41,727 nucleotides of DNA from a virus, in the IMG/VR virus record IMGVR_UViG_3300032245_000237, positions 1-41,727 of that record. One strand, written 5' to 3'. Shown piece after piece: positions 12,178 to 41,280 of this stretch (the first letter of the stretch is position 1; each line of letters opens with the position of its first letter). The notes under the pieces were generated by a model that saw nothing but the letters and a program-made list of their open reading frames with translations, had not been told where the DNA came from and searched no databases. The position numbers and the translations under genes were made by a program.

Positions 12178-12839
12178 TGAATATACAAAATCTACTCAAA
12201 AGCGCTTTAGTTGAAAATGACAAAGCGAGAGATAGATCGCAACAAACAGAACTTGGTGCTTCTAGTGTGGGTGGTTGTCGCAGACAAGCGTGGCAAATCA
12301 TCCACCAGAAGCCCAAGACTAACTTTGAAACCGAATCGTTAGCAGCAATTATTGGTACAGCCTTACATGCCACAATTGCTGAATCTATGAAAAATATAGA
12401 CCCATTTGGTGATGACTTTCTTATTGAAGAAGGTTTTTCAACACCTGATCTAAAAGGGCATGTAGATTTGTATATTAAATCAACTAAAACTGTTGTAGAT
12501 TGGAAGACATCAACTAAAAAGAAATTGGCTCAATTCCCTAGTGAACAACAAGTTATGCAAGTGAATTTGTATGGACATCTACTTACAGCCAATGGATATG
12601 AAGTAGATACTGTTTCCTTGGTTTGTATTCCCCGCGATGGCATGATGTCAGATGTAAAAGTTTGGCAAGCGCCATTTAGCCAAGAACTTGCTAATCAAGG
12701 TTTAGCATGGGTTCGAGATTTACAAGAAACGATTTCCCCGCCAGCACCAGAAAAACATCGCAGATTTTGTGCAAGTTTCTGTGAGTATTACAACTCAAAT
12801 GCAATAACGGAAGGAATCGGATGCGCAGGGATGATGTAG
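12177..12839 (+). CDS. Cas4/RecB-like PD-(D/E)XK nuclease with Fe-S cysteines
   Basis: 220 aa, GTG start overlapping the upstream stop. Nuclease motifs are in order: GTALH (His64), GHVDLY (Asp97), VVDWKTS (Asp108, Lys110) and QVNLYGHLL (the Q...Y motif). Cys34 plus Cys198, Cys202 and Cys216 match the four-cysteine Fe-S cluster layout of Cas4 and AddB-type nucleases. Likely a 5'-3' or end-resecting exonuclease feeding the annealing protein. Overlaps whiB by 19 nt. No CRISPR array or other cas gene is present, so CRISPR function is unlikely. Confidence 0.8.
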   Translation: MNIQNLLKSALVENDKARDRSQQTELGASSVGGCRRQAWQIIHQKPKTNFETESLAAIIGTALHATIAESMKNIDPFGDDFLIEEGFSTPDLKGHVDLYIKSTKTVVDWKTSTKKKLAQFPSEQQVMQVNLYGHLLTANGYEVDTVSLVCIPRDGMMSDVKVWQAPFSQELANQGLAWVRDLQETISPPAPEKHRRFCASFCEYYNSNAITEGIGCAGMM

Positions 12840-13165
12840 ATTGGGAAAAAGCATCTTGTAGGGGATTAGACACAGACATCTTTTATATGCACGAAGCGGA
12901 GTTAGTTCAAAAAGAAGGAATTGACTTTATGACTTTACGCAAACTATGTTTCCGATGTCCGATTTGGAAAGAGTGTTTGACCATAGGATTCAAATATGAA
13001 CGCTATGGATTTTGGGGCGGCATATCAGCAGAGGAAAGAGATCACATGGTTAGAGGCATAATCAGTCGTAAGCATTCAAGGCTTTTAATTCAGTTAAAAG
13101 GATTAGGTTTAGATTTTGAAGAAATTTACAGAATCAGCAAAGTAGAAAGGCAGTTAATCTGGTAA
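12821..13165 (+). CDS. whiB: WhiB-family Fe-S transcription regulator
   Basis: 114 aa. The four cluster cysteines are Cys13, Cys43, Cys46 and Cys52, in the pattern ASCRG ... LCFRCPIWKEC. The G(F/Y)WGG turn (YGFWGGISAEER) follows. WhiB proteins bind a 4Fe-4S cluster and the region 4 of the primary sigma factor, and occur only in Actinobacteria and their phages. Phage WhiB proteins can reprogramme host promoters. The C-terminal part (HSRLLIQLKGLGLDFEEIYRISKVERQ) is an extra helical, HTH-like tail. Strong host indicator. Confidence 0.92.
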   Translation: MRRDDVDWEKASCRGLDTDIFYMHEAELVQKEGIDFMTLRKLCFRCPIWKECLTIGFKYERYGFWGGISAEERDHMVRGIISRKHSRLLIQLKGLGLDFEEIYRISKVERQLIW

Positions 13166-17680: not shown

Positions 17681-17830
17681 CAACTCCACCACCGCCGCCA
17701 CCACCGCCTAAGTGCGCAAATCGCCGCCACCACCGCCTAAGTTTTGGCTTCCCACCACCGCCGCCACCGCCGCCTGAGTTTGCAATTTGCTGAGTTTTAC
17801 AACTCCACCACCGCCGCCTAAGTTGAGCAA
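17681..17830. repeat. GC-rich CCACCGCCG repeat in intergenic gap
   Basis: Four imperfect units. Each has a pure C/G-rich tract built of CCACC and CCGCC, then TAAGT or TGAGT, then an AT-containing spacer. Units 1 (17681) and 4 (17800) begin with the same 19 bases, CAACTCCACCACCGCCGCC. The minus strand has repeated GG runs (GGCGGCGGTGGTGG) that could form a two-tier G-quadruplex. No plausible gene crosses it. Composition is unlike the AT-rich surroundings. Confidence 0.85.
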
Positions 17831-17859: not shown

Positions 17860-18027
17860 ATGGCAAAAGGCAAAAGTCGCGGAGAGCGCAATTCAGAACG
17901 AAAAAACGGTAAGGCTCCAAAAAAACATATAAAAGTTCAAAAGAAAACTGGTCGTACAATTGGTGGTTATTCCCCTGCCAAATTAGCGATTCGGGCGGAA
18001 AAGCGTAAACAAACCGTTGGAGAGTAA
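17860..18027 (+). CDS. Lys-rich basic microprotein (55 aa)
   Basis: MAKGKSRGERNSERKNGKAP ... KVQKKTGRTIGGYSPAKLAI, ending KRKQTVGE. About one residue in three is Lys or Arg, with few hydrophobics, so probably disordered or nucleic-acid binding. Its stop overlaps the ATG of the HslV-like gene (TAATG), and both follow the GC-rich repeat as a new transcription unit. Ribosome site weak (GTAAGG). Family not recognised. Confidence 0.6.
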   Translation: MAKGKSRGERNSERKNGKAPKKHIKVQKKTGRTIGGYSPAKLAIRAEKRKQTVGE

Positions 18028-18572
18028 TGACCACAATAATTGCATTACAAAAACCTGACTGCGTAATTATTGCGGCAGATAATCAAGTTACTTCAACGCG
18101 AAAATACCGCCATCCCAAAATGGCAAAGATTACAAAACGCGGTCAATATTTAATTGCAGGAAGCGGCGAGGTTGCTGCTTGCGATATAACTCAACACATA
18201 TTTGTACCACCCAAACCAAACCTAGAAGATAAAAAAGATTTGTACCATTTTATGATTGCTAAATTTGTACCAGCATTAAAAAAATGTTTTAAGGAACAAG
18301 AATATAAATGGCAACCAACTGTTGATGATGATGAATATGAAACCAAGTTCATGTTCTTAATTGCGATATGTGGGGAGGTGTTTGAAATTGCAGACGATCT
18401 TGCAGTTACTTTGGATGATTCGGGTATCTATGGAGTCGGTTCTGGGAGTGATATTGCTATTGGTGCATTACACGCAGGGGCTTCTTTAGATAAAGCATTA
18501 AAAATTGCAGCAAAAATTGATCCATTTACTTCTGCTCCGTTTATTAAGATGGAGCAAAAGAAAAATGGATAA
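18027..18572 (+). CDS. HslV/proteasome-like Ntn-hydrolase peptidase
   Basis: 181 aa, close to HslV length. It begins MTTIIALQKPDCVIIAADNQ. Removing Met leaves an N-terminal Thr. In mature numbering Asp17 (AAD) and Lys33 (KMAK) fall exactly where the proteasome/HslV catalytic residues are. The C-terminal YGVGSGSDIAIGALHAG matches the conserved G.GS..A.GAL segment. No propeptide, as in HslV. Members are self-compartmentalising rings that degrade unfolded substrates fed by an ATPase (HslU, ARC/Mpa). No ATPase is encoded here, so it would act alone, borrow a host ATPase, or poison host rings. Overlaps the HNH gene by 8 nt. Confidence 0.82.
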   Translation: MTTIIALQKPDCVIIAADNQVTSTRKYRHPKMAKITKRGQYLIAGSGEVAACDITQHIFVPPKPNLEDKKDLYHFMIAKFVPALKKCFKEQEYKWQPTVDDDEYETKFMFLIAICGEVFEIADDLAVTLDDSGIYGVGSGSDIAIGALHAGASLDKALKIAAKIDPFTSAPFIKMEQKKNG

Positions 18573-18887: not shown

Positions 18888-19274
18888 ATGGCACAAATAA
18901 CGGTAGTAGGTAATGTAGGAACAGAACCAGAATTAAAGTTTTTTACTGGCAAAAATGGTGACTTTGGTGTTACCAACTTTTCATTAGCATATACACCACG
19001 CGAACGAAAAGGCACAGAATTTGTAGATGGAGAAACTGTTTGGTTTCGCATATCTGTTTTAGGCAAACAGGCTGAAACAGCAACCGAAATTAAAAAAGGC
19101 GACAAAGTAATTGTAATGGGCGCGTTTAAGCAATCAACTTATCAAGCCAAAGACGGTACTATGAAAACTGGATTAGAAATTAAGGCTGATAGTTTTGGAA
19201 TAGTTCCACGCCCAATGGAACGCAAAAAGGTAGAAAAGAAAGAAGAAGATGGGGGTTGGTCTTCATGGACTTAA
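18888..19274 (+). CDS. ssb: Single-stranded DNA-binding protein
   Basis: 128 aa OB-fold SSB: ITVVGNVGTEPELKFF, VTNFSLAYTPRER, TVWFRISVLGKQAE, KKGDKVIVMGAFKQSTYQAKDG. The acidic tail ends DGGWSSWT, lacking the usual DDDIPF tip, so docking to host SSB partners may differ. Works with the annealing protein, nuclease and RusA. Confidence 0.88.
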   Translation: MAQITVVGNVGTEPELKFFTGKNGDFGVTNFSLAYTPRERKGTEFVDGETVWFRISVLGKQAETATEIKKGDKVIVMGAFKQSTYQAKDGTMKTGLEIKADSFGIVPRPMERKKVEKKEEDGGWSSWT

Positions 19275-19444: not shown

Positions 19445-19611
19445 TTTGGTTTGTGCTTAGTGTTATAGGCGCACAACAACTTATTCACGCTTGGGAGATT
19501 CGCAAAATCAAACAAGAATCGCATTTGATGTTTCATTCTATTTTGAATGTTTCAAAGACGGCTGATACCGTATTGGAAATGTGGATTGAACATAAGAAAG
19601 AACACATGTAA
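19441..19611 (+). CDS. Small membrane-anchored protein (56 aa)
   Basis: GTG at 19441 overlaps the previous stop (GTGA). An N-terminal hydrophobic helix (MIWFVLSVIGAQQLIHAW) is followed by a charged helical tail (EIRKIKQESHLMFHSIL ... EMWIEHKKEHM). Stop overlaps the next ATG (TAATG). Function unknown. Confidence 0.5.
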   Translation: MIWFVLSVIGAQQLIHAWEIRKIKQESHLMFHSILNVSKTADTVLEMWIEHKKEHM

Positions 19612-20258
19612 TGAAATGTTTATTTTGCCGCAAAAATAACGACCAAATAGTTTGTATCAATTGCTGGCAATTTGCGCTTTCACAATTAAGAAAATTCCCC
19701 GAAAAGTACAATTTATTAGAGGATGAATTACAACCGTCTAAAGGTTATGGCGAACGCGTAAGCGGAACTAAAACCCCACCATTACCTGTACGGCTAGAAA
19801 CTTTATATTTACGAACAGGCGGGATAAGTCATAATCTTATGTTACACGAACAACAGATACGCATTAAATTGGAACATACTAAAATTACTTGGCGCGGGGA
19901 AGAAATTAATCGCATAACTAAAACATGCGAATACATTTATACACATGAAGAATGGATATACAAGAAATACGATGACATAGATCAATTGACTAAAGACATC
20001 CAAGACATATCAGGCAGAATTAATTTTGTATTAGGTAATAAATCAGAAGAAGTAACAATTGGAACTTGCCCTAGCACCGATGATAAAAATGAAATATGTG
20101 GGGCTATCTTGCGAATTAATCCTAACATTCTTACAACATATTCAGAAATCAAATGCAGGGCTTGTGATACAACATGGACTTCCGATAAGTGGAGATTATT
20201 AGGAAGGATTATAGAAAGTGCCACAAATAAAGCCGAATCAAGCAGCCAAATTATTTAA
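19611..20258 (+). CDS. Actinophage-type double zinc-ribbon protein
   Basis: 215 aa. N-terminal pairs C3-x2-C6 and C15-x2-C18 (MKCLFCRKN...VCINCW), then a helical middle with GTKTPPLPVRLETL. A C-terminal ribbon follows (GTCPSTDDKNEICGAIL ... IKCRACDTTW), ending WRLLGRII. Proteins with this order (two ribbons, LP.R.., WLL end) are common in actinophages next to a small HTH gene. DNA binding inferred. Confidence 0.65.
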   Translation: MKCLFCRKNNDQIVCINCWQFALSQLRKFPEKYNLLEDELQPSKGYGERVSGTKTPPLPVRLETLYLRTGGISHNLMLHEQQIRIKLEHTKITWRGEEINRITKTCEYIYTHEEWIYKKYDDIDQLTKDIQDISGRINFVLGNKSEEVTIGTCPSTDDKNEICGAILRINPNILTTYSEIKCRACDTTWTSDKWRLLGRIIESATNKAESSSQII

Positions 20259-22743: not shown

Positions 22744-23100
22744 ATGGCCAGTACATACAACACCGTTATTGACCAAGGAGCAGACTGGTTCCTAAATGTA
22801 ACTTGGGAAAATGTTGCTGGCGACCCAATTGATATAACTGGTTATACAGCAGCGCTTCAACTGCGTACTTCTCCATTGGCTAGAGTTGTATCACTAAACC
22901 TTACAACCGAAAATGACGGTCTTGCTATTAACGGCCCATTGGGTTTAGTAAGTGTTCACGCAACTAATGAGCAAACAGCATTACTTACACCACAAAGATA
23001 TACATACGATTTAGAACTTTATTCTCCTACCGATCCAGTTGTTGTTACCCGATTAATTCAGGGAACAATCGAAGTGTCTGCGAATACAACGCGTGAGTAA
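22744..23100 (+). CDS. BppU-like N-terminal-domain virion protein
   Basis: 118 aa, start signal GGAGAACAATG. YNTVIDQGADWFLNVTWENV then GDPIDITGYTAALQLR is the pattern of the beta-sandwich N-terminal domain of phage BppU-type baseplate and appendage proteins. It stands alone here, directly before the collagen-like gene, and overlaps its start by 8 nt. Probably the anchoring module for the fibre. Confidence 0.6.
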   Translation: MASTYNTVIDQGADWFLNVTWENVAGDPIDITGYTAALQLRTSPLARVVSLNLTTENDGLAINGPLGLVSVHATNEQTALLTPQRYTYDLELYSPTDPVVVTRLIQGTIEVSANTTRE

Positions 23101-25873
23101 TTGTAACTGCGCAGATTGCTGCGACAACATTGTTGTAGTTAGAGAACCAACAACCACCATAGCAATAACTGGTGGTGGCCCTGCTGGCCCACAAGGAACT
23201 ACTGGTGCGCAAGGTATTCAAGGTTTTGAAGGCCCACAAGGAATACAAGGCGTTCAAGGACTTGATGGTATTCAGGGTGCGCAAGGTACTGATGGCTTAC
23301 AAGGTGTGCAAGGAATTATTGGCGCACAAGGTCAAACAGGAATCCAAGGCGAAACTGGAATACAAGGCTTAGTTGGTAATCAAGGTACAACAGGTAGCCA
23401 AGGAACTTTAGGTACACAAGGTGCAACAGGTACTCAAGGTTTAATCGGAATCCAAGGTGTTGAAGGAATACAAGGAGTTCAGGGATTAGACGGAATCCAA
23501 GGAACACAAGGTATCCAAGGCGATGGCACACAAGGTACTGAAGGTGCGCAAGGTGCTACTGGTACTCAGGGCTTAATTGGTATTCAAGGTGAAATCGGAA
23601 TCCAAGGAATTCAAGGCTTTGATGGTTTACAAGGCTTAGAAGGATTGCAAGGTGTACAAGGCACCGATGGCATTCAAGGTTTTGATGGCACACAAGGCAC
23701 ACAAGGTTTAGAAGGATTACAAGGCGTTGAAGGTTTGCAAGGCATTCAAGGTACTAATGGTGTTCAAGGTTTTGACGGAACACAAGGCACACAAGGTCTT
23801 GAAGGCTTACAAGGTTTGCAAGGAGTTCAAGGAATTGAACCAGCCCAAGGCATCCAAGGTCTTATTGGTATTCAGGGAGAAACTGGATCACAAGGTTTAG
23901 ATGGAATTCAAGGTTTTGAGGGTTTACAAGGAACCCAAGGAATTCAGGGTTTTGACGGAACACAGGGCGTTGAAGGTTTGCAAGGAATTACTGGAACTCA
24001 AGGTGTTCAAGGAATTCAAGGACATGACGGAATTCAAGGACTTGAAGGATTACAAGGTTTAGAGGGTGCGCAAGGAACTCAAGGCATCCAAGGCAATAAT
24101 GGAATTCAAGGTCTAAACGGTATTCAAGGCGAAACAGGTTCTCAAGGATTAGAAGGAATCCAAGGACATGATGGCATCCAGGGTATTAATGGAATCCAGG
24201 GAACAACTGGCGCACAAGGTTTAGACGGCATTCAAGGCGAAATTGGTCTTCAAGGCATTTATGGAACACAGGGTGTTCAAGGCATAATTGGTTCTCAAGG
24301 AACCCAAGGTTTAATTGGTATTCAAGGACTTGATGGCATTCAAGGAGTTCAAGGTAATACAGGTGCTAGTGGAACCTCATCTTCTATTTTTGATTACCAA
24401 GCAAGAACTAACTCACAAACTCCACCACCTAATGCTGGCGACATTAAATGGAATAATGCAGTACAAATTCTTGCAACAAACATTTATGTATCTCACTTAA
24501 CAGCGCCAAATGTAGATATAGATGTTTTATTAGCAAACATAAAAAATGGCGACATCTTCTTTGTTCAAGATAGAAATAACTCTACTAATTATCAAGAATG
24601 GCAAGTAAACGGAACACCTACGACCGTTCCCAATGATTATTGGACTTATCCTGTAACACTTTTAACATCAAGTGGAACAGGTACAACAGGTTTTGCAAAT
24701 GGTCACAATATTTCTCTTATTACACAAAGCGTTGGTGTTCAAGGCGTTACTGGTGCGCAAGGAACAAATGGCGCTCAGGGAACTGTTGGCGCGCAAGGGT
24801 TACAAGGGTTGCAAGGAATTCTTGGCATACAAGGTGAAACAGGAACTCAAGGTTTAACTGGATCACAGGGTATTATTGGAATTCAAGGGGCAATTGGATC
24901 ACAAGGACTTCAAGGGCTGCAAGGACATGAAGGTAGCCAAGGTCTTGACGGAATTCAAGGCATAACTGGCGCACAAGGTTTAGACGGTATTCAGGGTCAG
25001 CGCGGATTACAAGGCGTTACAGGAACTCAAGGCGCTGAAGGATTACAAGGTACTCAAGGTTTACAAGGCCACGAAGGTATCCAAGGACAAATTGGATTAC
25101 AGGGTTTAACTGGCAGCCAAGGCACTCAGGGCTTACAAGGTGTTACAGGTAGCCAAGGTTTAGAAGGAATCCAAGGAACTCAAGGCGTACAAGGTTCTCG
25201 CGGCTTACAAGGAATGACTGGTAGCCAAGGAACTATTGGTGAAACTGGTGCGCAAGGAACACAAGGTGTTACAGGTTCTCAAGGAACTAATGGATTAAAT
25301 GGTTCTCAAGGAACACAAGGCATTCAAGGTAATCAAGGTTTAGTTGGTAGCCAAGGCACCAACGGATTAAACGGAAGCCAAGGAACTACTGGTAGTCAAG
25401 GATTAACTGGTAATCAAGGCTTAACAGGTTCGCAAGGTTTAACAGGTTCTCAAGGTTTGACTGGTAGCCAAGGATTAACTGGCATACAAGGAAATCAAGG
25501 AACTACTGGATCACAAGGTTTGACTGGTACTCAAGGCACACAGGGTGTACAAGGCACAACTGGAGTTCAAGGTACAACAGGTACTCAAGGATTTACTGGG
25601 TCGCAAGGTACAACTGGAACACAAGGTGTTCAGGGCTTAACTGGAATACAAGGTACAACTGGTAATACTGGTTCTCAAGGAACTCAAGGTACAACTGGTG
25701 TGCAAGGTTTAGTTGGAACTCAAGGTACACAAGGTATCCAAGGATTACTTGGTTTGCAAGGAACCCAAGGAATTCAAAGCACCCAAGGAACTACTGGAAT
25801 TCAAGGTGCGCAAGGAACTATTGGAACAACTGCAACAGCATTACCAGACATTTTAATGCTCGGTGGAATGTAA
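23093..25873 (+). CDS. Giant collagen-like fibre protein
   Basis: 926 aa, GTG start overlapping the upstream gene. Residues 1-25 are Cys-rich (SNCNCADCCDN). Two Gly-X-Y collagen arms (about 27-425 and 548-912) flank a globular domain of about 120 residues (SSIFDYQARTNSQTPPPNAG ... WQVNGTPTTVPNDYWTYPVT). It ends ALPDILMLGGM. Gln is in almost every second Y position, and Pro is nearly absent. Breaks in the triplets occur at GIEPAQG and GIQSTQG. Phage collagen-like proteins form trimeric fibres or capsid fibres. Its place between terL and portal suggests a head decoration or long adhesion fibre; which one is unknown. Confidence 0.8.
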   Translation: MSNCNCADCCDNIVVVREPTTTIAITGGGPAGPQGTTGAQGIQGFEGPQGIQGVQGLDGIQGAQGTDGLQGVQGIIGAQGQTGIQGETGIQGLVGNQGTTGSQGTLGTQGATGTQGLIGIQGVEGIQGVQGLDGIQGTQGIQGDGTQGTEGAQGATGTQGLIGIQGEIGIQGIQGFDGLQGLEGLQGVQGTDGIQGFDGTQGTQGLEGLQGVEGLQGIQGTNGVQGFDGTQGTQGLEGLQGLQGVQGIEPAQGIQGLIGIQGETGSQGLDGIQGFEGLQGTQGIQGFDGTQGVEGLQGITGTQGVQGIQGHDGIQGLEGLQGLEGAQGTQGIQGNNGIQGLNGIQGETGSQGLEGIQGHDGIQGINGIQGTTGAQGLDGIQGEIGLQGIYGTQGVQGIIGSQGTQGLIGIQGLDGIQGVQGNTGASGTSSSIFDYQARTNSQTPPPNAGDIKWNNAVQILATNIYVSHLTAPNVDIDVLLANIKNGDIFFVQDRNNSTNYQEWQVNGTPTTVPNDYWTYPVTLLTSSGTGTTGFANGHNISLITQSVGVQGVTGAQGTNGAQGTVGAQGLQGLQGILGIQGETGTQGLTGSQGIIGIQGAIGSQGLQGLQGHEGSQGLDGIQGITGAQGLDGIQGQRGLQGVTGTQGAEGLQGTQGLQGHEGIQGQIGLQGLTGSQGTQGLQGVTGSQGLEGIQGTQGVQGSRGLQGMTGSQGTIGETGAQGTQGVTGSQGTNGLNGSQGTQGIQGNQGLVGSQGTNGLNGSQGTTGSQGLTGNQGLTGSQGLTGSQGLTGSQGLTGIQGNQGTTGSQGLTGTQGTQGVQGTTGVQGTTGTQGFTGSQGTTGTQGVQGLTGIQGTTGNTGSQGTQGTTGVQGLVGTQGTQGIQGLLGLQGTQGIQSTQGTTGIQGAQGTIGTTATALPDILMLGGM
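23180..25830 (+). repeat. Coding repeat: collagen Gly-X-Y DNA
   Basis: Degenerate 9- and 18-base periodic repeats (CAAGG...) in two blocks around a unique segment (about 24371-24735). Codons vary between units (GGT, GGA, GGC; CAA, CAG), so selection holds the protein pattern rather than the DNA. Reading-frame shadows in this block are not genes. Confidence 0.85.
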
Positions 25874-31613: not shown

Positions 31614-32951
31614 ATGACCGAAACAACAAATGTCTATGCCGACATTATTAAGATGGATGATAACGGCGATGGAACACTTACCGTTTACGGAAAGGCAACT
31701 GATAGCGGATTAGACATTGACCAACAGATTTGTGATCCTGTGTGGCTTGATACTGCGATGCCAGAATGGTTCATGTCAGGTGGCAATATCCGCGAACAAC
31801 ACAGCAATATCGCTGCTGGTGTGGCTAAGGAATACGAAGCAAAGGCAGATGGACACTACATCAGCGCATTGGTAGTTGATCCTGTTTCAGTTAAGAAAGT
31901 TCAGAATCGCGTACTAAGAGGTTTCAGCATCGGTATTAAATCACCGCGTGTTGTTAAAGATACAAAGGCAGTAAATGGTCGAATCATTGATGGACAGATC
32001 GTAGAGGTCAGTTTAGTTGATAGACCAGCAAATCCAAGTTGCCAATTAGTTTTGGCAAAATCAATTAATGGTGAGAAAACACTAACGAAAGTAGAGGAAC
32101 TCTTGGAAACCAACATAGAAAAAGAAATAGCGGGAGAGCCAATGGCTATGAGTGGTGAAACCAAGACCATTCCTTCTCGTGAAGAAATGATTAGTCGTTA
32201 CGCATCTGCTCGCAAAGCAGTAGATGAGTTAATGATGGAGTGCAAGTCATACGGTTACGATGATATTGCAAAACAATATGGCGAAACAGCCGAAGAAGAA
32301 TCAATTGAAGGCCCTGCTGGTAGCGGTGCCGAACATGAACTAGGTGAAGTCAAAAAAGAAATGGTAGATCAGAACGATGATGAAACTGATCTAGCCGCTA
32401 AGTCAGCAACTCACAAATGCTTAGAATGTGGATGTAATATCCCACAAGCAACACATGGTCTAACACAGGTAGAAGTAACTGGCGCAACACCAAATAACGA
32501 AATAGCAAATGTTTCTACCGCCGTTATCTTTTCCCCAGATCAGACACCAAAGAGTGCTGAACCAGATGAGAATTCTGTTGAAGAAATATCAACAGATAAA
32601 CCCCTGCTCGCTGATGTTGATTTAATTGACATCGTTGAGAAAGCCGTAAAGAGTGCTATGAGTTCGGTAGAAGCCGAGGTCGCATTGTTAAAATCTGCAA
32701 AAGAGGCAGTAGAGAACAAGGCAATTTCACTTGAAACTGAATTAGCAACGGCAAAATCTCTCGCAATAGGTGGTGGCCCTAAACGGACAACCATAGCGAC
32801 AGGTGCTAATAAAACAAATGAATGGAAAGCCAAAGCAGATTTATACTTTGCAAAGGCCTCCTCAACAACCGATCAGATTCTTGCTAAGGGATACCGCGAT
32901 ATGGCAAAAGATTTTCTTGCCAAGTCCGAGCCTGAAGTAGAATCTAAATAA
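31614..32951 (+). CDS. Prohead protease with long scaffold-like extension
   Basis: 445 aa. The protease domain (about 1-145) has NIREQHS (catalytic His), VLRGFSIGIK (probable Ser) and IVEVSLVDRPANP, the U35/S78-like phage prohead protease pattern. After it come 300 residues: an acidic linker, a CLECGC knuckle with nearby His, and a long coiled coil (VEKAVKSAMSSVEAEVALLK then KEAVENKAISLETELATAKS). No separate scaffold gene precedes the capsid gene, so the extension probably acts as scaffold and is self-removed. Confidence 0.75.
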   Translation: MTETTNVYADIIKMDDNGDGTLTVYGKATDSGLDIDQQICDPVWLDTAMPEWFMSGGNIREQHSNIAAGVAKEYEAKADGHYISALVVDPVSVKKVQNRVLRGFSIGIKSPRVVKDTKAVNGRIIDGQIVEVSLVDRPANPSCQLVLAKSINGEKTLTKVEELLETNIEKEIAGEPMAMSGETKTIPSREEMISRYASARKAVDELMMECKSYGYDDIAKQYGETAEEESIEGPAGSGAEHELGEVKKEMVDQNDDETDLAAKSATHKCLECGCNIPQATHGLTQVEVTGATPNNEIANVSTAVIFSPDQTPKSAEPDENSVEEISTDKPLLADVDLIDIVEKAVKSAMSSVEAEVALLKSAKEAVENKAISLETELATAKSLAIGGGPKRTTIATGANKTNEWKAKADLYFAKASSTTDQILAKGYRDMAKDFLAKSEPEVESK

Positions 32952-38307: not shown

Positions 38308-38710
38308 CCTTAAACTTGTTAAAAAAATATGGGAAAACACAACTAATAAAGTTGATGTTGCCACCCGCGAAGCCCGCGATGAAATGATGACTGCCCTTAT
38401 TCAATTATCAAAAGAGCAGATTCAAGGCGTAAGGCCAAAAGGTCAAGTTGCTTGGCGAGGTCATCCAGAACCACCTATGAATAGAACTGGTAATTTGCGC
38501 CGTTCTATTAGAGGTGAAAAATTTAGAACAGGTTTTGCTTCCTATGAAGCCATAATTGGCCCAACAATTATCTATGGTCGCAAGGTTGAACTAGGTGGGC
38601 CTAACTGGAAAACAGGCGTTCAGTTCCCTTATATGGAACCTGCTTATCGAATTTATAGAACACAAGTCCACCAACAAATAATTAACAAATACTTTAGGAG
38701 GTTCAGATGA
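38294..38710 (+). CDS. HK97 gp10-like protein
   Basis: 138 aa, TTG start at 38294 inside the chaperone end; no ATG fits. Pattern: helix VKKIWENTTNKVDVATREAR then DEMMTALIQLSK, next GNLRRSIRG and YEAIIGPTIIYGRKVELGGP, then PYMEPAYR, as in HK97 gp10-type tail-completion proteins. It lies after the chaperones, not before the tail tube as usual. Start codon uncertain. Confidence 0.65.
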   Translation: MITSNLKLVKKIWENTTNKVDVATREARDEMMTALIQLSKEQIQGVRPKGQVAWRGHPEPPMNRTGNLRRSIRGEKFRTGFASYEAIIGPTIIYGRKVELGGPNWKTGVQFPYMEPAYRIYRTQVHQQIINKYFRRFR

Positions 38711-41280
38711 ATGGTTTTCTACCACCTGTAATCTTTGAAGTAAAGGCTAAAGCAACAGAGGCTATTGCTGAATTCAAAAAAGTAAATGCTGAAATGTCCA
38801 AGATGGAAAAGAATGCTGATAAAACAGCGCTTGGCATGATGAAAATGGAAAAGGCAGCCAAACTTACTAAAGTTGCTTTATTTGGTGTTGCAACAGCATT
38901 TGGTGTACTTGCCGTTGCTGGCGTTAAAGCCGCGATGGATCAAGAAAAAGCGATGGCATTATTACAAACAGCCGTTAAAAACACAGGTCAAAATTTTCAA
39001 GCAGCCACACCTTACATAAATGAAGTTAGCAATTCTTTAATTAAACTTGGTTTTCACGATGAAGAAACTGTTGGTGTTCTAGCCAAATTAACTGCTGCAA
39101 CTGGTGATGTTAAAGTTGCTATGGATTCTATGGGTGTTGCTGCTGACCTAGCAAGATTCAAACAAATTTCTTTAGCCGATGCTGGCGATTTAATAGCAAG
39201 AGCATCTACTGGTCAAGCAAAAGGATTGCGTGATTTAGGTATTGCTTTAGGCAAAAACATTGACAAGAATGCAACCTTGGCAGATGTATTAAAAGCCGTT
39301 GAGGACAGAACTAAAGGCGCTGCTGATGCGTTTGCTAAAACCTCAGCAGGTAAATTACAGGTATTTAACGCGCAAGTAGATCAATTAAAAGAAAATATTG
39401 GTAAGGGATTATTACCAGCATTTAATAAGTTTATTGATTACATGAATAAAACAGGCTTACCTGCATTAGAAAAATTCTTTAAGTTTATAGATGATAATAA
39501 AACAACAATTGCTACTCTTGGTATTTTATTAGGTGGCATTTGGACTACTAATAAAATTGTTAAAGGTATTGAAGCAACTATCCTTCTTTTTGGAAAATTA
39601 CGCAAAGGAATTAATTTAGTAAAAGATTCCGTTATTGCTTTGCGAATTGCGATGTTAGCATCAAATCCTTTGGGTTGGTTAGTTGCAGCAGCAACGGCGG
39701 CAACAGCAGGATTAGTATGGATTCATAATAAATTCTTCAAAACAAAAACATCTAAATCAGTATCTACTTTTGGAGATTTAAGTAATTCCAACGAAGGTGT
39801 TAGCGGTATTGGTCAAGGCGCGGATTGGGCTGGCAAACAAGTAAACGCATTATCAGATGCTCTTATTAATGCTAGACAAAAAGTAAAAGACTTTAACGAT
39901 CAAGTTAAAAGTACGGCTGCCGACTTAAAGGGTAGTTGGGCTGCCATAGCAGGTAAAGACTTTAACGCCGCAATTCAAGAAGGATTACTAAATCCTGTTG
40001 ATAAACTTGTAACTAAAACACGAACTGCCGTATCTGCTTATCAAGCAGCATCAGGTCAATATCAAGGCTCATTAACTCAATTAACATCTGCTCAAGATGC
40101 TTATACCAAGGCCGTAGCAGGTGGCAATAAAACATTAATTGCTTCCACTACAAGCGCTCTTAAAAAAGCCGAAGATTTAGTTAGTGGTTTACAAAAAAGC
40201 ATGGAAACTGCTTTAGGCGATATTAAGCAATTGCAAGATGACATGATTGCTGCTGTTGTAGAAGCACAAACTAAGATTAATGATCTTGAGGCTGAAAAGA
40301 AAACTATATTAGCCGATGCGTTAAAAGAAGAATTAGCCTTACAAAAAGATTACAACGCTAAGGTATTATCATTACGACAAGATGCCGCCAAGCGTAGCGC
40401 CGAGATTGTAAAGACTTCAGTAGATCAAATGCGCGGTATATTCAAAGGCGCAACTTCTAAAGGAATTGGCGACATATTCTCAGGATTAACTTTTGAAGGT
40501 AAATACCTTAAGGGTGGATCATTAGAAGCCATTACTAATGCGTTAGCAACACAAGCACAAAAGGCTACTACGCTTGCTGATAAAGCAGGAAAACTTCAAG
40601 CATTAGGATTTACACAAACCTTTATTGAAGAAGTAATTGCACAAGGCCCTGATGTTGGCGGAGCATTGGCAGATACCATTCTTGCTGGAAGCCCAGAAGC
40701 CGTAACTCAATTAAACGCTTATTGGTTAGCCTTAGAAAAAGTATCATCTCATGGCGTAGATACAATAGCCAAACAATTAAATTCAGGTATTACTCTTGCT
40801 ACCGAAGAACTAACTGCCCAATTAGCGCAGGTTCAAACAGATTTAACTGTTGCTTTGTCAGATGCCTATAAAGAATATTCTGAATCATTAGATGCTATTC
40901 GTGCTAAGACAGCAGAACAAATTAAAGTAATTGATGACCAAATTACTGAACTTATTAAGAAAATTCAGCAATTAAAAGATGCTTTAGCCGAATTAGCATT
41001 ATTAAATGCACCAGGAACTCAAACAACTCCTACCGTTAAAATTCCAGGCGGTACTGGTAATTATCCAACTGGCACCAATGCTGCTGCTTGGAGAGATTAC
41101 AGAGCGGGTGAAAGAGGCACTACTATAAACTTTACGCAAAATAATAGTTCTAATGCTAGTCCTGAAGTTATTGCCGCAAGCACCGCTTGGGCTATTAGAA
41201 GTTCAGGCGACTTAAACTTTACCGCTACTAGGGCGATGGAAAGATCAGGTACAACAACTAATAGTGGAATGGGTAATTAA
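38707..41280 (+). CDS. Tape measure protein
   Basis: 857 aa. Charged helix (residues 9-50), then hydrophobic KVALFGVATAFGVLAVAGVK; two further membrane-like segments at about 264-298 and 321-338; long coiled coils after 380 and again near 700-780; a Pro/Gly linker and polar C terminus. At about 1.5 angstrom per residue it predicts a tail near 130 nm. It sets tail length and probably helps DNA enter the cell. No lytic domain is visible. Confidence 0.85.
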   Translation: MNGFLPPVIFEVKAKATEAIAEFKKVNAEMSKMEKNADKTALGMMKMEKAAKLTKVALFGVATAFGVLAVAGVKAAMDQEKAMALLQTAVKNTGQNFQAATPYINEVSNSLIKLGFHDEETVGVLAKLTAATGDVKVAMDSMGVAADLARFKQISLADAGDLIARASTGQAKGLRDLGIALGKNIDKNATLADVLKAVEDRTKGAADAFAKTSAGKLQVFNAQVDQLKENIGKGLLPAFNKFIDYMNKTGLPALEKFFKFIDDNKTTIATLGILLGGIWTTNKIVKGIEATILLFGKLRKGINLVKDSVIALRIAMLASNPLGWLVAAATAATAGLVWIHNKFFKTKTSKSVSTFGDLSNSNEGVSGIGQGADWAGKQVNALSDALINARQKVKDFNDQVKSTAADLKGSWAAIAGKDFNAAIQEGLLNPVDKLVTKTRTAVSAYQAASGQYQGSLTQLTSAQDAYTKAVAGGNKTLIASTTSALKKAEDLVSGLQKSMETALGDIKQLQDDMIAAVVEAQTKINDLEAEKKTILADALKEELALQKDYNAKVLSLRQDAAKRSAEIVKTSVDQMRGIFKGATSKGIGDIFSGLTFEGKYLKGGSLEAITNALATQAQKATTLADKAGKLQALGFTQTFIEEVIAQGPDVGGALADTILAGSPEAVTQLNAYWLALEKVSSHGVDTIAKQLNSGITLATEELTAQLAQVQTDLTVALSDAYKEYSESLDAIRAKTAEQIKVIDDQITELIKKIQQLKDALAELALLNAPGTQTTPTVKIPGGTGNYPTGTNAAAWRDYRAGERGTTINFTQNNSSNASPEVIAASTAWAIRSSGDLNFTATRAMERSGTTTNSGMGN

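Follow-up and report, generated by a model that had tools for sequence, protein, structure and literature searches.

The window analyzed here is the entire stretch of 41,727 nucleotides of the IMG/VR virus record IMGVR_UViG_3300032245_000237. At positions 18027-18572 (+) it encodes a proteasome-like threonine peptidase of 181 residues, assigned to group I (HslV/BPH/AAH-like) and carrying Met, Thr1, Asp17 and Lys33. Directly upstream, a small ORF (17860-18027, +) codes for a very basic protein of 55 residues. Its stop codon overlaps the start codon of the peptidase gene (TAATG), and the two are likely co-translated. This ORF is kept in the relatives L001 and L002, and L048 has a similar one; as it occurs only in the nearest relatives and in L048, we rejected it as a general partner of the peptidase. 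In L003 and L004 it is replaced by an ORF of 227 residues, GNAT acetyltransferase-like by eye, which overlaps the peptidase start. On the downstream side, an HNH endonuclease gene (PF01844; 18565-18885, +) starts within the final bases of the peptidase gene; this HNH gene is the conserved downstream neighbor of the peptidase in window-type phages. It is followed by a gene for a single-strand DNA-binding protein (18888-19274, +), identified by a match to the profile PF00436. GC-rich repeats of the type CCGCCACCACCGCCTAAGT lie at positions 17683-17830, downstream of a lysin-like gene and upstream of the small basic ORF; the rest of the genome has 40% GC.

Other parts of the window characterize the virus. 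A gene for a WhiB-family transcription factor (PF02467, 43.9 bits; 12821-13165, +) is a marker of an actinobacterial host. Because this gene is present, the host is considered to be an actinobacterium, as the preliminary description had supposed, and the window virus infects a freshwater actinobacterium. WhiB genes were also detected in 30 of the 33 records of phages that carry the peptidase or its linked neighbors, and among 14 control genomes in Corynebacterium only. Positions 31614-32951 (+) code for a probable prohead (head maturation) protease whose C-terminal part is scaffold-like. It is separate from the peptidase and was recognized by phrog_80 (7e-9), by a weak PF04586 match below the cut-off and by a motif pattern seen by eye. 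Near the head genes, a protein of 926 residues (23093-25873) contains long collagen-like Gly-X-Y repeats. The window begins with a distal-tail gene (1-572) and has a tape-measure gene at its end (38707-41280), which suggests a circularly permuted, nearly complete genome opened within the tail module. A megablast comparison of window positions 1-25000 with annotated phages produced no match.

The features of the peptidase given in the preliminary description were all confirmed in the ORF at 18027-18572 (+). The protein starts with MTTIIALQ, so that Thr immediately follows the initiator Met, and numbering from this Thr puts the catalytic Asp at 17 and the catalytic Lys at 33. The segment GSGSDIAIGAL occupies residues 138-148 (counted from Met), and neither sequence nor model contains a propeptide. 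All 38 aligned homologs have Thr1, Asp17 and Lys33 without exception. To avoid selecting homologs by their own conservation, we collected 150 further ones through neighbor genes rather than through the peptidase itself (72 at loci found with a histone-deacetylase-like gene and 78 at loci found with a portal gene, among the matches listed). Each of these 150 listed matches has Thr1 and Asp17, and at least 98% have Lys33. The gene is protein-coding and under strong purifying selection: the closest twin, L001, differs from it by 39 synonymous and 0 non-synonymous codons out of 181, and L003 by 71 synonymous and 31 non-synonymous ones.

To place the protein among proteasome homologs, we combined profile searches, structure prediction and phylogenetic analysis. 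A PF00227 search and a structure prediction for the single chain had both been proposed as checks. The former gave 25.6 bits over residues 2-53, above the curated cut-off of 22.4, and phrog_1040 ('peptidase HslV family') matches the protein along its full length (E 1.3e-28), a resemblance well beyond chance. The latter, an AlphaFold2 model based on the alignment of 38 homologs (pLDDT 89, pTM 0.87), has the alpha-beta-beta-alpha proteasome fold, and is compact with both helix pairs kept, including helices 49-58 and 72-90. In a Foldseek search of the PDB, the best matches of the model are BPH structures (5ovs, 5ovt and 5ovu; TM 0.68-0.76), followed by HslV, with 20S subunits also among the top ones; in the viral library its matches are other phage HslV-like proteins. 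When the PDB was searched with the profile of the 38 homologs, BPH again ranked first, followed by 20S beta subunits and HslV. Neither a lack of a PF00227 match nor a lack of this fold, two outcomes named beforehand as refuting the observation, was seen. Thus, of the original label 'HslV/proteasome-like', the assignment to the superfamily holds (PF00227, fold, intact catalytic residues), but HslV proper does not, since the TIGR03692 score lies far below its cut-off (23.9 versus 157.75 bits). PRK05456 gives the same picture (24 versus 137 bits), the nearest solved structure being BPH. The bacterial 20S beta subunit was also rejected (TIGR03690, 12.4 bits versus a cut-off of 191.9), as was PPH, a phage homolog of about 140 residues in which helix H2 is missing (PMC8665760): the window protein has 181 residues, and because its model shows both helices it is not a PPH.

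The nearest cellular homologs are plasmid genes of Rhizobium, Sinorhizobium, Mesorhizobium, Streptomyces, Bacillus and Paraburkholderia. The presence of Rhizobium, Sinorhizobium, Streptomyces and Bacillus among them matches the distribution of AAH, whose cellular carriers are expected in alpha-proteobacteria and actinobacteria. In the phylogenetic tree, the clade of the window protein (15 rows, support 84/87) does not join the group of plasmid genes (support 99/97), while BPH, HslV and several other phage proteins are left at an open fork with long branches. Judged by sequence, we place the window peptidase in a phage-borne, AAH-like clade of group I proteasome homologs; because the tree sets this clade apart from the plasmid genes, we do not claim membership in AAH itself. 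Cyanobacterial homologs (L155, L156 and L157) form a separate clade, carry Ser in place of Thr at residue 1 and are probably CPH. Two scans of contigs for cellular homologs returned none in the first case and L100 alone in the second (peptidase 49% identical). L100 is a 110-kb contig (CAINGU010000031.1) binned as a cyanobacterium, with WhiB-, GroES-, thioredoxin- and ThyX-like ORFs recognized by eye; it is probably a misbinned large actinophage, so that its peptidase is probably not a cyanobacterial gene.

We also considered whether the window protein might be a true chamber of the HslV type. It would dock on an AAA+ unfoldase of the host (ClpX, ClpC, HslU or the proteasomal ATPase) and thereby turn host proteolysis toward substrates chosen by the phage. 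Fold and catalytic triad are the same as in HslV, and the phage brings no unfoldase of its own, so that the cutting of native proteins would require one from the host. PF07724 (HslU/ClpX-type AAA_2) has no match in the window record or in 14 related phage records. PF00004 is absent from the window, from G000 and from the IMG/VR records, and was detected only in W01 (DSL-LC01) and W02 (Planktophila phage E7). The preliminary description had stated that no ATPase gene is present; this holds for both of these families in the window, but the phage does have a terminase. Host ClpX, ClpC or the proteasomal ATPase could still be a partner. However, both HslV equivalog cut-offs are missed widely, and the stretch from helix 2 to the following strand has a net charge of -4 in the window protein, -6 in BPH and on average -3.3 over the 38 homologs. 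Such an acidic loop resembles that of BPH, for which no unfoldase partner is known, rather than the short linker of HslV (PMC5777263). On balance, we find a docking chamber quite unlikely.

The fold also bears on a different possibility, namely that the protein is a protease or ligase of narrow specificity, either monomeric or forming small oligomers, which like connectase processes a single host or phage protein. Non-degradative proteasome homologs such as connectase do exist (PMC8665760), and in another lineage the peptidase is linked to a histone-deacetylase-like gene (see below), which suggests a protein-modification setting. Yet no long insertion of the connectase type is seen, and the compact model with both helix pairs is like the ring-forming members of the superfamily. 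An enzyme of this kind appears improbable to us.

Across phages, the peptidase gene was found in three recurring genomic settings. Setting A is that of the window, with a small lysin-like gene, the peptidase, the overlapping HNH gene and the SSB gene in this order. When used as search seeds, the HNH gene and the gene at 19611-20258 had too few relatives for measuring their linkage to the peptidase. In setting B, a histone-deacetylase-like gene (PF00850, E 6.7e-54) lies upstream of the peptidase, as observed in 72 of the 76 loci collected with the deacetylase as seed. In two of the exceptions, L187 and L204, the sequence stops no more than about 100 bases from the match, and in a third, L195, 409 bases after it; the fourth, L237, is a distant deacetylase (36%). 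The deacetylase-like gene, exemplified by L024:5083-5976, has no match among PHROGs. In setting C, the gene order is terminase, portal (phrog_104), peptidase, a small protein, a giant protein and, further along, a scaffold-like protein and the capsid protein (phrog_1357). Here the peptidase gene lies downstream of the portal gene, nearly always directly, in 78 of the 80 portal-seeded loci among the matches listed; the two others, L280 and L316, end about 80-120 bases past the portal match. Since the portal search matched at least 600 stretches, setting C is common in IMG/VR. It is also the setting in Planktophila phage E7 (OX376640), which together with phage F5 (OX376641) carries a homolog 33-34% identical to the window protein. 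Both phages were isolated on 'Ca. Planktophila' LanE-43, and the main text of the paper describing them makes no mention of HslV, protease or peptidase (PMC10202952). Much of the synteny within each phage group is shared ancestry and alone is no evidence of function. Moreover, because the genomic setting differs between lineages, a single shared biological role is not certain.

The peptidase varies within setting C. The peptidases found there fall into two groups that are only 24-37% identical to each other (mean 32%, among the matches listed), whereas the portals of the same two phage groups are on average 83% identical (78-94%, also among the matches listed). The pair L290 and L275 illustrates this: the terminases are 95%, the portals 94%, the following genes 79% and the giant proteins 83% identical, but the peptidases only 34%. 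The nucleotide alignment of the two breaks across the peptidase gene and then resumes. It follows that the peptidase was swapped for a very different version in the same slot. As both versions retain the catalytic residues, this pattern argues that the portal slot needs this peptidase activity, as far as can be judged from sequences. The swap also argues for shifting demands on the enzyme's sequence. Recombination from a diverse pool accounts for the way in which such a swap takes place, but gives no reason for it. That divergent versions replace each other at a single locus is compatible with a role in conflict without proving it. The suggestions of the preliminary description that the peptidase may degrade regulators or defense proteins of the host, or may join host rings, are to be taken as conjecture.

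The position next to the portal raises the question of virion assembly. According to this explanation, the peptidase of the portal-linked lineage would trim or clear one of the head proteins or the scaffold, with a relocated copy now found in the window. The place directly after the portal (the 78 of 80 listed loci noted above) is a usual one for a head maturation protease, and because neither a phrog_80 nor a ClpP-type protease was found in 12 setting C genomes, an assembly role is possible for the peptidase of this setting. Against it, the capsid protein of setting C is of the PF13252 type and is accompanied by a separate DUF4355-like scaffold (below the cut-off); heads of this type are not known to require proteolysis. 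In addition, two peptidases about 32% identical share one slot beside closely similar portals. As for the window phage and its close relatives, they have a separate match to a head maturation protease, and their peptidase gene lies in a region of DNA metabolism. Owing to the separate probable prohead protease, head maturation is unlikely to be the task of the window gene, and its phage probably relies on another enzyme than the window peptidase for that step. We thus give an assembly protease with a relocated window copy a low probability. A broader formulation is that in a large group of freshwater actinophages a proteasome-type peptidase has become fixed in the head module after the portal, either as a new assembly protease or as an exchangeable cassette, and that the window gene is a relative residing in the DNA-metabolism region; we regard it as rather unlikely.

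Considering the above, we think it likely that the window gene codes for an active Ntn threonine peptidase of group I, from a phage-borne clade near BPH, AAH and HslV, which forms rings and has no dedicated ATPase. Its role is best matched by that of an unfoldase-independent ring peptidase, with ring formation and ATP independence inferred from the sequence and the single-chain model. Removal of the initiator Met is expected to expose the catalytic Thr1. The subunits would assemble, as a single or double ring, around a central cavity that encloses the active sites. The long acidic loop is located where BPH has its pore loop. Such a peptidase may work without a dedicated ATPase on proteins that are unfolded, small or specifically recognized during infection of the actinobacterium. 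Removal of particular host proteins or of by-products of phage assembly would be examples of its tasks.

The enzyme class itself has already been published in phages; what is new is the setting. The phage proteasome homologs PPH and AAH were described by Fuchs, Alva and Lupas in 2021 (PMC8665760), and a stand-alone HslV-like gene is less noteworthy than it seemed initially, given 85 annotated phage records, a PHROG family and these two published groups (PMC8665760). New are the actinophage carriers (30 of the 33 tested with WhiB) and the homologs in two cultured Planktophila phages. Many such viruses have strongly conserved the peptidase, and their hosts rank among the most abundant freshwater bacteria. 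With E7 and F5 growing on 'Ca. Planktophila' LanE-43, the gene can be followed directly. Fixed neighborhoods, the swap, the distribution among actinophages and the cultured phages together make the role of phage proteasome homologs directly testable.

Compared with known systems, the window protein shares with PPH, the proteasome homolog of phages and their hosts, that it is encoded by a phage and has no ATPase partner. The likeness to HslV extends to Thr1, Asp17, Lys33, the Gly-Ser-Gly segment, length and fold, but the scores fall far below the equivalog cut-offs and hslU is neither adjacent nor present elsewhere in the phage. Besides the phrog_1040 match, homologs are annotated in Escherichia, Microbacterium, Arthrobacter and Tenacibaculum phages; a PHROG is, however, a broad bin, and the window protein is only about 26-35% identical to the proteins of those annotated phages. 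BPH, the beta-proteobacterial proteasome homolog, is the best solved relative by both sequence and fold. It has a long acidic pore loop and no known unfoldase partner, and it assembled yet was inactive in standard assays (PMC5777263). The window protein shares the acidic loop between helix 2 and the strand as well as the lack of an unfoldase partner, but is only about 21% identical, is phage-borne and is known here from its sequence and a single-chain model. With AAH it has in common group I membership, a compact subunit without a propeptide, the catalytic triad, occurrence in phages and the absence of a partner AAA+ protein. The 2021 survey found AAH in phages, though in no Actinobacteria-specific one, reported no gene context or AAA+ partner hinting at its function, and named phages as central to the spread of proteasome homologs (PMC8665760). 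The carrier of the window protein, in contrast, is an actinophage, and the actinophage set described here fills this gap of the survey with many actinophage genomes, two fixed gene neighborhoods and a natural swap.
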